NCBI GenBank assembly: GCA_015062605.1
Contig: SUUI01000009.1
Coordinates: 1 to 64,000, forward strand
Source of the DNA: Eggerthellaceae bacterium
Lineage (GTDB): Bacteria; Actinomycetota; Coriobacteriia; Coriobacteriales; Eggerthellaceae
Direction: 5' to 3'
Length of the DNA: 64,000 nt
Shown here: piece by piece, positions 11,260 through 17,563 of the stretch
Position numbering within the stretch: the stretch's first letter is position 1
Layout of the letters: each line of letters begins with the position of its first letter
The notes under the pieces: generated by a model
What the model was told of the DNA's origin: nothing
What the model saw: the letters and a program-made list of their open reading frames with translations, nothing else
The model's database searches: none
Program-made: the position numbers and the translations under genes

Positions 11260-12627
11260 CTAGCGAACGCTCTTAGGGTCTGCAGTACCCGATAAATACC
11301 ACGTCTTGCAAAGGTCGACATGAACCGTAATGAATCGGCCGCATAACTCATCGATGGTCATGCCCGAAGGAATCGGAGCATGAACGGTTTGATTGCCTGG
11401 AGTTCTTCCGGAAAGCAATGAAGGATTCCTCTTGGAAACTCCCTCAACAAGGACCTCGACATCGCAGCCAAAATCAGGCTGGTTAAGCTCAAAAGCGCGT
11501 TTTTGGACTAAATCGACAAGGCGATCGAACCGATCCTGGATCTCCTCTCGGCTTGCATTTTGCTCATATGTTGCAGCAGGGGTGCCGTTACGTTTGGAAT
11601 AAATAAACGTGAACACCTGCTTGTAACCTATATCGCTGACAAGCCTGTACGTATCGAGGAAATCCTCTTCCGTTTCTCCCGGAAAACCGACGATGATGTC
11701 GGTCGAAAGAGCTATGTTTGGTACGACTTCACGGAGTTTTCTTACAAGCTCGCGATAATGCTCGTGTGTATAATGCCTGTTCATAGCCTTAAGAATGGTA
11801 TTTGAACCGCTTTGAACCGGAAGATGGAGCGCCGGCATGAGCGCATCGATCTTTCCAAAAGACTCGATGACTTCATCGGTTAAGTCCTTCGGGTGGCTTG
11901 TTGCGAAACGGAGGCGCTCAATTCCCGTATCAGCGACGCGCTGAAGCACCTCAGCAAATCGTGGAGAGCCGTATAGATCGCGCCCATAGGAATTCACGTT
12001 TTGACCAAGCAGCGTGATCTCCTTAACGCCATCATCAACATATCTTTTCGCCTCAGAAACAATATCCTCGATGGTTCTTGATTTCTCACGACCGCGAACG
12101 TATGGAACAATGCAATACGTGCAGAAGTTGTTGCAACCGATCATTATCGGCAGCCATGCTGCCCAGGCATGCTCGCGCCTTTGCGGAAGGTCGGTTGGGA
12201 AGCTATTGGATGCATCCTCGATCTCGCATTGCGCCTTGCTGTCATCAATCGCCTTATACAGAAGTGCAGGAAGCGAATGGATGTTATGTGTGCCGAATAC
12301 CACGGAAACATGAGGCATTTGCTTTATGAGGCGTTCTCCATCACGCTGTCCGATACAACCGCCTATGGCAATCAAGCGCTTGGAAACAGGTGCATTCTCC
12401 CTAAGCGGGATGTTCTTTATAGATGCGACTTGACCGTAAAGACGGGTGTCAGCGGCTTCACGGACGCAGCATGTCATGAACACGACGATGTCGGCTTCTT
12501 CGACAGTCTCAACCTGCACAGCGCCAAGAGACTCCAGCATCCCATGGACGCGTTCAGAGTCGTGTTTATTCATTTGGCAGCCGAAGGTATGGATGCAAAA
12601 TGCAAACCCCGTGAAATCGATGTGCAT
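11260..12627 (-). CDS. miaB: tRNA-2-methylthio-N6-dimethylallyladenosine synthase
   Basis: A 455-residue radical SAM methylthiotransferase that converts i6A37 to ms2i6A37 in tRNA. It has the N-terminal UPF0004 domain with its own cluster cysteines (TFGCQMN, FMTCCVREAA, IGGCIGQ). The radical SAM motif CNNFCTYC (about residues 157-164) binds a second 4Fe-4S cluster. A C-terminal TRAM domain follows. The ATG at 12627 is preferred; a TTG two codons earlier is possible. It starts 12 bp after spoVS and precedes miaA. Confidence 0.96.
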   Translation of the reverse strand: MHIDFTGFAFCIHTFGCQMNKHDSERVHGMLESLGAVQVETVEEADIVVFMTCCVREAADTRLYGQVASIKNIPLRENAPVSKRLIAIGGCIGQRDGERLIKQMPHVSVVFGTHNIHSLPALLYKAIDDSKAQCEIEDASNSFPTDLPQRREHAWAAWLPIMIGCNNFCTYCIVPYVRGREKSRTIEDIVSEAKRYVDDGVKEITLLGQNVNSYGRDLYGSPRFAEVLQRVADTGIERLRFATSHPKDLTDEVIESFGKIDALMPALHLPVQSGSNTILKAMNRHYTHEHYRELVRKLREVVPNIALSTDIIVGFPGETEEDFLDTYRLVSDIGYKQVFTFIYSKRNGTPAATYEQNASREEIQDRFDRLVDLVQKRAFELNQPDFGCDVEVLVEGVSKRNPSLLSGRTPGNQTVHAPIPSGMTIDELCGRFITVHVDLCKTWYLSGTADPKSVR

Positions 12628-12639
12628 GTTCAATCAGCT

Positions 12640-12990
12640 CTAATCGGCAGTGCTGCGGGAAGCAGACTGCAACGATTCATCAATGGGGACACCATGCGAA
12701 TAGCGCGGCTCAACAGAAAAACGGATGGCCGTACGGTATTCACCATCAATGACGATATCAGCAAATGAAGGTGCACACACGAGCTCTATGCCGATTGGAG
12801 AAAGAAATCCGCGAGAAATAGCAATGGCTTTCACAGCCTGGTTAACAGCACCTGCACCGACCGCTTGGATTTCAACGAAAACGCCATCCTTAATCATGCC
12901 GGCGATTGCGCCTGCTACGGAAGCGGGAGAAGATTTAGAGGAAACTTTCAGACAACCAGCAGTCTGTCTTGGATCGGTTGGCGAAGACAC
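12640..12990 (-). CDS. spoVS: SpoVS-like nucleic-acid-binding protein
   Basis: A 116-residue protein with the compact Alba-like SpoVS fold over residues 13-95: LKVSSKSSPASVAGAIAG, then IQAVGAGAVNQAVKA, then DIVIDGEYRTAIRFSVEP. SpoVS affects septation and spore coat assembly in Bacillus, but homologues are common in bacteria that do not sporulate, where the role is unknown. The short N- and C-terminal extensions are polar. The start is a GTG with AGAGGT upstream. First gene of the spoVS-miaB-miaA unit. Nearness to rny and recA recalls the conserved ymdA(rny)-ymdB-spoVS neighbourhood of Firmicutes. Confidence 0.9.
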   Translation of the reverse strand: MSSPTDPRQTAGCLKVSSKSSPASVAGAIAGMIKDGVFVEIQAVGAGAVNQAVKAIAISRGFLSPIGIELVCAPSFADIVIDGEYRTAIRFSVEPRYSHGVPIDESLQSASRSTAD

Positions 12991-13150: not shown

Positions 13151-13165
13151 TTAGAGTTACTCTAG
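13151..13165. promoter_or_regulatory. Second copy of the MerR-type palindrome
   Basis: TTAGAGTTACTCTAG matches the palindrome before merR (8073-8087) in 14 of 15 bases, and the 16 minus-strand bases TAGAGTAACTCTAAGG are identical at both. It overlaps the stop codon of the GHKL gene and lies about 55 bp upstream of the spoVS promoter. Confidence 0.45.
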
Positions 13166-14269
13166 GAGTTGTAAAGGGATATCGATAGAAAGTTTTCCAT
13201 TGCGCTGTTGGGTTGAGATTTTAACCTCACCATCAAGATAATACTTCTCGGCAATTTCGGAAAACGCGTTCGAGGTGTTCGCAACTATCTTCGAGATGTC
13301 CTTCGGGGCGATATGGGGAATGTCGGAGGCCTTGCGTTTAAGGCTCTCCCTCTCCCCTTTTGCATTCTTGGCGCGCAACCCTCTTTCCGTCTCATCGCCC
13401 TCTTCCAATGCATGGGCGATCTTAAGTAATAGCGGTTCGACGGGCTTGATCTTCCCGCCTAAGATGCGACGTGCTGTCCTCTCGGAGAGTTCGAGGCCAA
13501 GCGAGCAGGCAACTTCAGCGAATTCCCTCGGATCATCCGTGCTCGACAAAAGCAAGGTGACCGAGAGATCATTTTCATCGGTAGAGAAGATGGCTTGCGA
13601 GGATTGAACGAAGGATTGGCCGCCCCAATACAGAGTCGAGGCTATCTCGCCAGGGCTGCCAAAGAATAGCTGGACCTTGGATTTCTGCTCGATGGCGAAT
13701 TCGCACATGGTGCGGATGATGTTCTTCGGGCCGCGCAACGAGATGGTTTGCTGCTCGGTATGCAGGAACTTCGGGAACGTCGATTGGTCGGTCTTCTCCG
13801 TAAGTTTCGAAGTGTCGGATTTAACGACCATGGCGCAACCCAATCCCGGTGAGGAATGAGTGACATAGGCCTCTTTCGCATTTGTCTTTACGGAATATAA
13901 GGCCATGCCACGGCCATGGACGCCCCATGAGTCCGTGATCATCGTTTCAAGCTTCGATGTAACGCGTGGCTCGAAGATGAGCTCATGCATATGGGACGGA
14001 ATACCCTCTCCATCATCGATGACCGTTAAGGTTCGAATACCACTCTCTTTCGAACTTGCAACGTATATCGATCGCGCATGAGCGTCGCGCGAGTTGCGAA
14101 GTAACTCAATGACGATATCCTCAGTACACCGTATGTCCTGTGCCGCTTGACGACGTTGAGCTTCATCGGTGCGTAAACGTACGAAGCCATCCCCAAGGTC
14201 CTCTTCGACCCGGAGATGGCTATCCGTACACGTAGCCTCTATGAATGACTGAAGCTCTAGGTCAGCCAT
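13157..14269 (-). CDS. GHKL-type ATPase of unknown function
   Basis: A 370-residue protein with a Bergerat ATP-binding fold over about residues 40-150. The N-box is ELLRNSRDAHA, the G1 box DDGEGIP and the G2 box HGRGMALYSVK, as in MutL, Hsp90 and histidine kinases. No phospho-acceptor histidine domain, sensor region or membrane segment is visible, so it is not a classical sensor kinase. The remaining residues hold a helical, charged region (about 285-330). It follows rny by 11 bp and is almost certainly co-transcribed. MutL- or MORC-like conformational switching in RNA or DNA metabolism is possible, but I know of no characterised homologue. Its stop lies inside a regulatory palindrome. Confidence 0.75.
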   Translation of the reverse strand: MADLELQSFIEATCTDSHLRVEEDLGDGFVRLRTDEAQRRQAAQDIRCTEDIVIELLRNSRDAHARSIYVASSKESGIRTLTVIDDGEGIPSHMHELIFEPRVTSKLETMITDSWGVHGRGMALYSVKTNAKEAYVTHSSPGLGCAMVVKSDTSKLTEKTDQSTFPKFLHTEQQTISLRGPKNIIRTMCEFAIEQKSKVQLFFGSPGEIASTLYWGGQSFVQSSQAIFSTDENDLSVTLLLSSTDDPREFAEVACSLGLELSERTARRILGGKIKPVEPLLLKIAHALEEGDETERGLRAKNAKGERESLKRKASDIPHIAPKDISKIVANTSNAFSEIAEKYYLDGEVKISTQQRNGKLSIDIPLQLLE

Positions 14270-14280
14270 GTTCTATTGTC

Positions 14281-15813
14281 CTATCTAGCGTAGTCGATTG
14301 CACGGCTTTCGCGAATTACGACAACCTTCACTTGGCCCGGATATTGCATTTCACTCTCGATTTGATGCGCAATATCATGCGCAAGAACCGTTGTGGTCGC
14401 TTCATCAACAACCTCAGGAGTCACCATAACGCGTACCTCACGGCCAGCTTGGATGGCGTACGTACGCTCAACGCCCTTATAGGAATTCGCAATCTCCTCG
14501 AGCTTCTCAAGGCGCTTGATGTACGCATCGAGCGTTTCCTTGCGAGCGCCAGGACGAGCGGCAGACACAGCATCGGCAGCTTGGACTAAAACATCGATGA
14601 CGCTGTTGGGATCGACGTCGTTATGATGGGCCTCGATGGCATGGACGATCTCGGGTCTCTCCCCGAAACGACGCGCAAGATCAGCACCAATAACCGCATG
14701 GCTGCCATCGACTTCATGATCGACAGCCTTACCAAGATCATGCAAAAGTCCGGCACGCTTTGCGGGAATGGGATCGAGACCTAACTCGGCAGCCATGACG
14801 CCAGCAAGATAAGCGACCTCGAGAGAATGGTTCAGGACGTTCTGACCATACGATGTGCGGTAGAGCAAGCGACCAAGGGTATGCACGAGCTCGGGGTGCA
14901 AATCGTGGATCCCCGCATCGAAAGTCGCCTTCTCGCCTGCATCTTGGATGCATTGGTTCACAAAGGCCTCAGCCTTGCCATACATCTCCTCGATGCGTGC
15001 AGGATGGATACGACCATCTGCGATGAGATTCTCCATGGTAACTCGACCGATTTCGCGACGAACAGGATCGAAGCACGAGATCGTAACGCACTCTGGCGTA
15101 TCATCGATGATGAGATTGGTGCCGGTCAACTGCTCGAAGGAACGGATATTACGACCCTCACGTCCAATGATGCGACCCTTAAGATCATCCGATGGGATGT
15201 GGATTGTGGATACCGTGACTTCAGATGAATGATCAGCTGCAACACGCTGAATGGCAAGCGATAAGATCTCGCGGGACTTCTTGTCAGCTTCGGCCTTAGT
15301 ACGAGCCTCGGATTCCCTGATTATGGCAGCAGATTTATGAGCAACCTGATCCTTCAAGGAACGAAGAAGCTCTTCTTTCGCCTGTTCGGAGGTCATGCCT
15401 GCAACATGCTCGAGCTTAGCTGAAACTTCTTTCTCAGCAGCTGCGATATTGCGTTCACGACGATCGAGCTGACCTTGCTGCGAGGATAGCTGATGTTCGC
15501 GTGCATCAAGTGCCTCGGCGCGTTTATCAATAGATTCCTCGCGTTGCGCCAAGCGATTCTCAGATGCCCTGATCTCTCGTTGACGTTCCTTGTTCTCAGC
15601 TTCAGCCTCTTGTCTGAGTTTCAAGGCTGCATCTTTGGCCTCGATGATAGCTTCACGTTTGGTCGTCTCAGCAAGGCTCTTCGCTTCGGAGACGAGCTTT
15701 TCGGCTTCTTCAGCAGCATGCTTTGTTGATGCATTGACGACGAATCTAGAAATAACATAACCGAGGATAATGCCTACGACGACTCCGATTATGATGTAAA
15801 CAACTGTCGGCAT
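14281..15813 (-). CDS. rny: Ribonuclease Y
   Basis: A 510-residue membrane-anchored endoribonuclease that starts mRNA decay. Residues 1-24 are a transmembrane helix. A long charged coiled coil follows (about 25-190). A KH domain (about 200-265) contains [15 protein letters not shown]. The HD domain (about 325-420) shows [12 protein letters not shown] with its metal-binding His-Asp. Length and order match the family. It is probably the main mRNA decay enzyme here together with RNase J and PNPase, both in this window. It leads a two-gene unit with the GHKL ATPase. Confidence 0.97.
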
Positions 15814-15969: not shown

Positions 15970-16437
15970 CTATAGGGCGTTTTGTTCAAGCCATCGCCTT
16001 GATGCGGCATAGGCAATATTCGGAGAATATCCATTTCTCAAAAGCTTCGAATAAGCACCCCGGAACAGATTCCTGCTTCGCGGCGGCTTTCTTGCAAGAA
16101 GACTTACAGCCAGGGAAATCTGATCTTCGCTATCCATATCCAGTAATTCACTGATGCTATCATCCTTGAAATCATTAATGTGGATGTTCATCTTCGAAAG
16201 GTCGCGGGCGATTCCATCCATTCCTTTCCCCGAACGGGTTTTAGATTCGACATAGAGCCTGGCGTAGCGCGCATCATCAATAAAGCCATACTCTTTAGCC
16301 CGATCAACTGCATCGTTAATCGGGCCTAAAGAATAACCGGCACGCGTAAGCTTTGCGCGAATGTTGGCTTCGGATTGATCGCCCGCATTCAGGATGCGCA
16401 CAATGCGCCTGAAAGCATCGTCGGAAGTATCTTTCAT
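15970..16437 (-). CDS. recX: Regulatory protein RecX
   Basis: A 155-residue all-helical protein that binds RecA filaments and limits their activity. It shows the tandem three-helix RecX repeats, including EANIRAKLTRAGYS near residue 20, AKEYGFIDDARYARLYVES near 47-65 and GIARDLSKMNI near 76-86. The length is typical. It starts 28 bp after recA ends, the usual recA-recX operon, so it should be induced with recA in the SOS response. Confidence 0.93.
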   Translation of the reverse strand: MKDTSDDAFRRIVRILNAGDQSEANIRAKLTRAGYSLGPINDAVDRAKEYGFIDDARYARLYVESKTRSGKGMDGIARDLSKMNIHINDFKDDSISELLDMDSEDQISLAVSLLARKPPRSRNLFRGAYSKLLRNGYSPNIAYAASRRWLEQNAL

Positions 16438-16465
16438 CGTCTACGAAGCCCTATCGGATGAGTTC

Positions 16466-17524
16466 TTATCGTTTCTTCGATGGCTTGGATACCGCGCGTA
16501 CTTTCGCAGCTTCCTCCGGAGTGCGCTCGACTATGGGGATGTTGAACGCCTCGCGGACCTTAAGCTCGATTTCCTCACGTATGGAAGGATTCTCGCGAAG
16601 CAGCTGCTTCGCAGCCTCGCGACCTTGGCCCAATCGCTCTTCGCCATAGGTATACCAAGCGCCGCTCTTCCTGCATACGCCGCAATCAACGGCCATATCG
16701 ATGATGCAGCCTTCACGGGAAACGCCTTCGCCGTACATCAGATCGAACTCTGCCTGGCGGAACGGTGGAGAGACCTTGTTCTTGACGACCTTGGCACGTA
16801 CGCGATTGCCGATGACCTCGCCGTCCTTCTTGATCGAATCTATGCGGCGGATATCAATACGGACGCTGGAGAAGAACTTCAACGCGCGACCGCCTGTCGT
16901 AGTTTCGGGATTGCCGAACATGACGCCTATCTTCTCGCGGAGCTGATTGATGAAGATGCATGTCGTATTTGACTTCGAAAGGGAGCCAGCGAGCTTGCGC
17001 AGGGCTTGGGACATAAGACGTGCCTGCAAACCGACTGTCGAATCACCTATCTCGCCTTCGATTTCGGCACGGGGAACCAAAGCGGCAACCGAGTCAATGA
17101 CGACGACATCGATTGCACCCGAGCGAACGAGCATATCGCAGATCTCGAGAGCTTGTTCACCGGTATCCGGCTGGGAGATTAGCAACTCATCGATGTCGAC
17201 ACCGAGACGGGCTGCATAGACGGGATCAAGCGCATGCTCGGCATCGATGAACGCTGCGATACCTCCCATAGCCTGCGCTTCGGCTGTGATCTGAAGGGCA
17301 AGCGTGGTCTTACCGCTCGACTCAGGACCATAGATCTCAACGATACGGCCGCGCGGAACTCCACCGATGCCCAAGGCCATATCGAGCGGCAAAGCGCCAG
17401 TCGGAATGACGCCGATGCTCAAGTCAACTCCCCCATCTCCGAGCTTCATAATGGAACCGTGACCAAACTTCGCCTCGATTTGATCGGTGGTGAGTTTGAG
17501 CATCTTTGCCTTGTCTTCTTTCAT
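16466..17524 (-). CDS. recA: Recombinase RecA
   Basis: A 352-residue recombinase that forms filaments on single-stranded DNA, exchanges strands and stimulates LexA self-cleavage. The Walker A motif GPESSGKT lies near residue 65. Walker B (VVIDSVAAL) is near 140, and loops L1/L2 follow with GNPETTTGG in L2. The C-terminal region is basic (KPSKKR) rather than acidic. I chose the ATG at 17524 because AGGTGATC directly before it matches the 16S tail; the ATG at 17563 would lie at the transcript start. Transcribed from a consensus promoter with an SOS box, followed by recX. Confidence 0.98.
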
Positions 17525-17563
17525 GATCACCTGATTTCTCGCGCGTTTGAGTTTTGCAAGCAA

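Follow-up and report, generated by a model that had tools for sequence, protein, structure and literature searches.

A GHKL ATPase gene directly behind rny in Coriobacteriia and other Actinomycetota is a candidate ATP-dependent helper of RNase Y

A gene encoding a stand-alone GHKL ATPase directly follows rny, the gene for RNase Y, in Coriobacteriia and in a large part of the phylum Actinomycetota. Its product has the fold and the motifs of the GHKL superfamily, and, with the exception of a single incomplete assembly, the gene is present only where rny is found. RNase Y initiates mRNA decay in many bacteria, and its best-studied specificity factor is the Y-complex, a system of the Bacillota. 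Encoded in this position, the GHKL protein is a strong candidate for a factor that uses ATP to assist in RNA decay, and a role in this process is likely. We hold it to be an even call that the protein is a dedicated ATP-dependent accessory factor of RNase Y, whose ATP state gates or steers cleavage. The gene lies in the window, that is the whole stretch of 64,000 nucleotides analyzed here from a contig of an Eggerthellaceae bacterium. A first-pass annotation of this DNA had suggested that the product may switch conformation with ATP, either in RNA decay or in DNA repair. The same annotation knew of no described RNase Y partner of this type, and within the partial literature that we searched we found no such partner and no paper that joins 'RNase Y' with 'GHKL'.

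The GHKL gene and its surroundings

The genes and sites around the GHKL gene, all on the minus strand, are the following.

11260..12633, minus: miaB-like gene, conserved end of the gene block (open reading frame list; position kept in relatives)
12640..12990, minus: SpoVS-family gene (Alba-like fold), next downstream of the GHKL gene (Pfam SpoVS, 1.3e-34)
13157..14269, minus: GHKL ATPase gene, 370 aa, single-copy, conserved neighbor of rny (open reading frame list; homologues adjoining rny)
13898..13924, minus: G2 or ATP-lid box GVHGRGMAL, residues 116-124 (sequence and 81-sequence alignment)
13949..13966, minus: RVTSKL motif (residues 102-107), equivalent to TSK(I/L) of MutL (MutL alignment and 81-sequence alignment)
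14000..14017, minus: G1 box DDGEGI, residues 85-90 (sequence and 81-sequence alignment)
14081..14113, minus: N box VIELLRNSRDA (residues 53-63), in which Glu55 is of the catalytic type and Asn59 of the Mg-binding type (MutL alignment)
14279..14282, minus: Shine-Dalgarno-like AGGA, 9 nt 5' of the ATG and overlapping the rny stop codon (read from the sequence)
14281..15813, minus: rny, RNase Y, 510 aa, with KH and HD domains (TIGR03319, 1.3e-214, over cut-off)
15970..17563, minus: recX and recA, conserved genes upstream of rny (open reading frame list; kept in relatives)

The GHKL frame opens with an ATG at 14269 on the minus strand, and its coordinates remain as first annotated. It had been placed 11 bp after rny; the gap from the rny stop codon (14281-14283) to the ATG is exactly 11 nt, and the TIGR03319 match identifies the upstream gene as RNase Y. 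On the minus strand the junction reads TAG GACAATAGAAC ATG, and no promoter- or terminator-like site was found in this interval on the strand of the two genes. Strong purifying selection on the frame (dN 0.047 and dS 0.605 against a congener) indicates that it is a real gene.

Further upstream, the interval between recX and rny contains a terminator-like hairpin followed by a T tract (GCTGCATATCAATGCAGTTTTTGTTTTA; 15871-15854, minus strand), roughly 40 nt upstream of the start codon of rny. This hairpin could terminate recA-recX or act as an attenuator within the leader of rny. Just 5' of recA we also observed a perfect match to a sigma-70-type promoter (12/12, 17-nt spacer; 17592-17564, minus strand).

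Two Pfam families, HATPase_c (1.1e-8) and HATPase_c_3 (2.9e-8), match the GHKL protein over their cut-offs, and both are matched by all 31 family members of alignment A1. Among 81 aligned sequences, E55 and N59 of the N box are invariant, and the N box (ELLRN), G1 (DDGEGIP), TSKL and G2 (HGRGMAL) vary little or not at all, which bears out the clear N, G1 and G2 boxes of a Bergerat fold reported in the first-pass annotation. Together with the superposition of the predicted structure on known GHKL cores (Z 11-14), these matches place the protein in the GHKL (Bergerat-fold) superfamily. The Pfam scan returned nothing other than generic ATPase domain families, there is no NCBIfam equivalog, and the defense-system library did not match.

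Linkage to rny and distribution

We detected GHKL relatives in 96 of 100 related genomes sampled at the level of the order and in 196 of 199 across the class; a profile search over the phylum found them in 97 of 246 sampled genomes. With few exceptions there is one copy per genome. A scan of GTDB contigs returned 472 relatives, the best 80 of which come from Eggerthellaceae, other Coriobacteriia or uncultured bacteria. Among the matches listed, the closest named relatives are Eggerthellaceae, with 92% identity to a MAG, while homologues in Eggerthella, Gordonibacter, Paraeggerthella, Slackia and Adlercreutzia share about 45-50% identity with the protein. In one family (f40) the protein is divergent and shorter (about 310 aa), its boxes are partly degenerate, and one member has Gln in place of the catalytic-type Glu (E55 position).

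In all 164 genomes where both genes could be located, the GHKL gene follows rny immediately and in the same orientation. This adjacency, which the first-pass annotation had named as a check, holds both within the order (96/96) and outside the class (68/68). The median spacing, measured from the end of the matched residues with the paired coordinates of the GHKL and RNase Y matches, is 22 nt in the order sample and 43.5 nt outside the class. In one family the two genes share 4 nt, and such an ATGA overlap is a classic sign of translational coupling. The wider gene order is recA-recX-rny-GHKL-spoVS-miaB. Both recX and spoVS vary among relatives, and the rny-GHKL pair persists even without spoVS or without recX, with miaB next; where the GHKL gene is missing, miaB often lies directly after rny. 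In other classes of the phylum the same block includes, before miaB, a PHP protein (L164:3564-4397, L165:3882-4718, L137:4990-5829 and L143:4685-5527) closest to RNase RNM and to 3',5'-nucleoside bisphosphate phosphatase, with scores below the cut-offs. SpoVS belongs to the Alba superfamily and has an Alba-like fold (PMC11621453). Taken together, RNase Y, the SpoVS/Alba-like protein, MiaB and the PHP protein point to an RNA function for the genes around the GHKL gene.

The occurrence of the GHKL gene depends on that of rny. In the phylum sample it is found in 96 of 177 genomes with rny and in one of 69 without (P-value 2e-17, Fisher test, not corrected for phylogeny), and this one exception is a truncated hit in an assembly that is 79% complete. 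A GHKL ATPase co-encoded with rny wherever it is found is a direct candidate for energy-dependent control of RNA decay. Such control would be relevant to gut Coriobacteriia (Eggerthella, Gordonibacter, Adlercreutzia and others) as well as to deeper Actinomycetota.

Because the recA-rny-miaB block is conserved as a whole, linkage by itself does not set rny fully apart from other possible partners. The main rival explanation is that the protein is a MutL- or MORC-like accessory of DNA repair or recombination within the recA-recX-rny block, serving RecA or DNA rather than RNA. Its closest motifs and structures are indeed those of MutL and topoisomerase VI-B, and the block has recA and recX on its upstream side. 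Moreover, the evolutionary rate of the GHKL gene follows recA slightly better than rny: the mirror-tree partial correlations (rny 0.12, recA 0.20, miaB 0.19) showed no co-evolution specific to rny. However, recA is near-universal, yet the GHKL gene is essentially confined to genomes with rny, and the terminator-like hairpin separates recX from rny. Within Coriobacteriales, MutL was over cut-off in none of the 60 relatives checked and MutS was found in none of 31, so the resemblance to MutL does not mean mismatch repair. Since the protein also lacks both a nuclease and an S5 domain, we consider a DNA-repair role unlikely.

One Eggerthellaceae genus, represented by two genomes (G009, or L051, and G054, or L053), has cleanly lost the GHKL gene and kept rny. 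In both genomes there is no GHKL gene between rny and spoVS, and recX is not detectable beside recA. The latter observation also fits a partner in DNA repair. The divergence of RNase Y in this genus is not significant (+1.2 SD), which, together with the loss itself, indicates that the GHKL protein is not essential to RNase Y. When RNase Y residues were compared between genomes with and without the GHKL gene, only weak and conservative differences tracked its presence (uncorrected for phylogeny or multiple testing). Among them, D194 of genomes with the gene is E in most genomes without it and in both genomes that lost it, again uncorrected for phylogeny and multiple testing.

Predicted structure and proposed action

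We built an AlphaFold2 model on the 81-sequence alignment (mean pLDDT 89.3) and discarded a single-sequence model (pLDDT 40). In the model, a short N-terminal helix and a hairpin precede the GHKL core, and helices with a final two-strand hairpin follow from about residue 206. The core superposes best on ADP-bound B. subtilis MutL (Z 14.2, rmsd 3.2 over 150 residues, VIA-align), followed by MLH1, topoisomerase VI-B and GyrB. Two features lie behind the core.

13160..13654, minus: C-terminal module (residues 206-370), helical with a beta hairpin at its end, replacing the S5 transducer (model and Pfam scan)
13460..13531, minus: helix pair LG-L-S-RT-RIL, residues 247-270, helix-turn-helix-like (model and family comparison)

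Neither a DHp domain of the histidine-kinase type nor an S5 transducer is present in the model, and the MutL nuclease is absent as well. With Pfam otherwise unmatched, the absence of a histidine phospho-acceptor, a sensor and a MutL endonuclease part, noted at first pass, thus stands, and the structure prediction proposed there as a check returned neither a plain histidine kinase nor an anti-sigma factor. A remnant or variant of either class could account for the HATPase_c matches and for weak kinase matches. We consider it very improbable, as the protein has no DHp domain and no conserved phospho-acceptor His, the anti-sigma HATPase family does not match, the GHL-type Glu of the N box is invariant in the 81 aligned sequences, and the C-terminal module, about 165 residues long, is conserved. 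A sensor histidine kinase was rejected because the N box has no more than about 50 residues before it, HisKA does not match and no invariant His occurs in that part, and an RsbW/SpoIIAB anti-sigma kinase because none of 31 members matched HATPase_c_2 and the 370-aa protein carries the conserved C-terminal module.

Pfam gave no significant match to the C-terminal module, and residues 296-318 of the model are of low confidence. Its helix-turn-helix-like segment, G-L-[IV]-S-R[ST/N]-RI[IL]-G-I-P, is conserved in all lineages, including the divergent short f40 family. This conservation, and in one member a LacI/Xre hint short of significance (LacI E 0.11), would suit a nucleotide-sensing regulator that combines a GHKL sensor with a DNA-binding module and controls transcription of the rny block or of other genes. 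No member scanned matched any helix-turn-helix family significantly, though, and we found no known GHKL one-component regulator with such an architecture; this reading appears rather improbable. Even less probable is a factor that remodels or assembles proteins in the manner of Hsp90, acting on RNase Y or on an RNA-decay complex at the membrane. The GHKL fold, the presence of TRAP1 among the structural matches and the obligate pairing with the gene of a membrane enzyme are in its favor, but the 370 aa leave out the Hsp90 middle and C-terminal domains, and in many genomes RNase Y works without the GHKL protein.

For an accessory factor of RNase Y, we propose the following mode of action. By analogy with the biochemistry of MutL and GyrB, binding of ATP would close the GHKL cores into a dimeric clamp. 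The C-terminal helical module may then contact RNase Y, RNA or both, and the ATP state would gate or steer where and when the membrane-bound RNase Y cuts. The job may resemble that of the B. subtilis Y-complex (YlbF/YmcA/YaaT), of which only the YaaT-type (PSP1) protein is kept here. A broader proposal, that a GHKL clamp with its own C-terminal RNA- or RNase-binding module constitutes a novel type of RNase Y control powered by ATP, ancestral in part of Actinomycetota and coupling the specificity of RNase Y to ATP state, is one that we advance tentatively, as somewhat short of an even chance.

Comparison with known systems

The specificity factors of RNase Y that form the Y-complex are YlbF/RicF, YmcA/RicA and YaaT/RicT (PMC10470536, PMC13230545), and in B. 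subtilis YaaT (RicT) binds RNase Y only if YlbF and YmcA are present (PMC10470536). The role proposed for the GHKL protein, modulation of RNase Y, would be analogous. In sequence and fold, however, the Y-complex is unrelated to the GHKL protein. Its components contain Fe-S clusters and do not belong to the GHKL ATPases, and the Pfam scan found neither a Com_YlbF nor a PSP1 domain in the GHKL protein. Unlike the three-part complex of B. subtilis, the relatives keep a YaaT-type PSP1 protein (28/31) without Com_YlbF partners (0/31). Over the phylum, YlbF occurs in 3 of 246 genomes, too few to judge mutual exclusion with the GHKL gene. About 80 genomes of the phylum have rny without the GHKL gene, and nearly all of them are without YlbF too; the GHKL protein is therefore not a simple substitute for YlbF or the Y-complex.

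Among GHKL ATPases, the N-terminal domain of MutL shares the most recognizable motifs: its KELVENSLDA resembles IELLRNSRDA of the GHKL protein, DDG/DNG-G and TSK(I/L) are common to both, and HGRGMALYS aligns with RG-ALYS of MutL (G-RG-AL-S). The GHKL protein nevertheless scores 40.1 bits against a cut-off of 180 for TIGR00585, and is predicted to have only helices and a two-strand hairpin after residue 205, in place of an S5 transducer. It ends at 370 aa with no match in Pfam to a C-terminal dimerization or endonuclease domain, and its gene sits with rny in genomes without MutS. Canonical MutL-type mismatch repair was disfavored on the absence of MutS and MutL from the relatives checked. The ATPase domains of topoisomerase VI-B and GyrB share the core fold (Z 12-13); they differ from the GHKL protein, which lacks the transducer and has no topoisomerase partner gene nearby.

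Prokaryotic MORC and paraMORC proteins are likewise GHKL ATPases distinct from MutL, gyrase and kinases; they contain an S5 domain and are patchy, mobile and found alongside restriction-modification genes (PMC2292703). The GHKL protein, in contrast, has no S5-like part in the model and is the product of a vertically kept core gene, whose neighbors are recA, rny, spoVS and miaB rather than restriction-modification genes. An architecture with neither S5 transducer nor kinase domain makes this family informative on the reuse of the GHKL fold.
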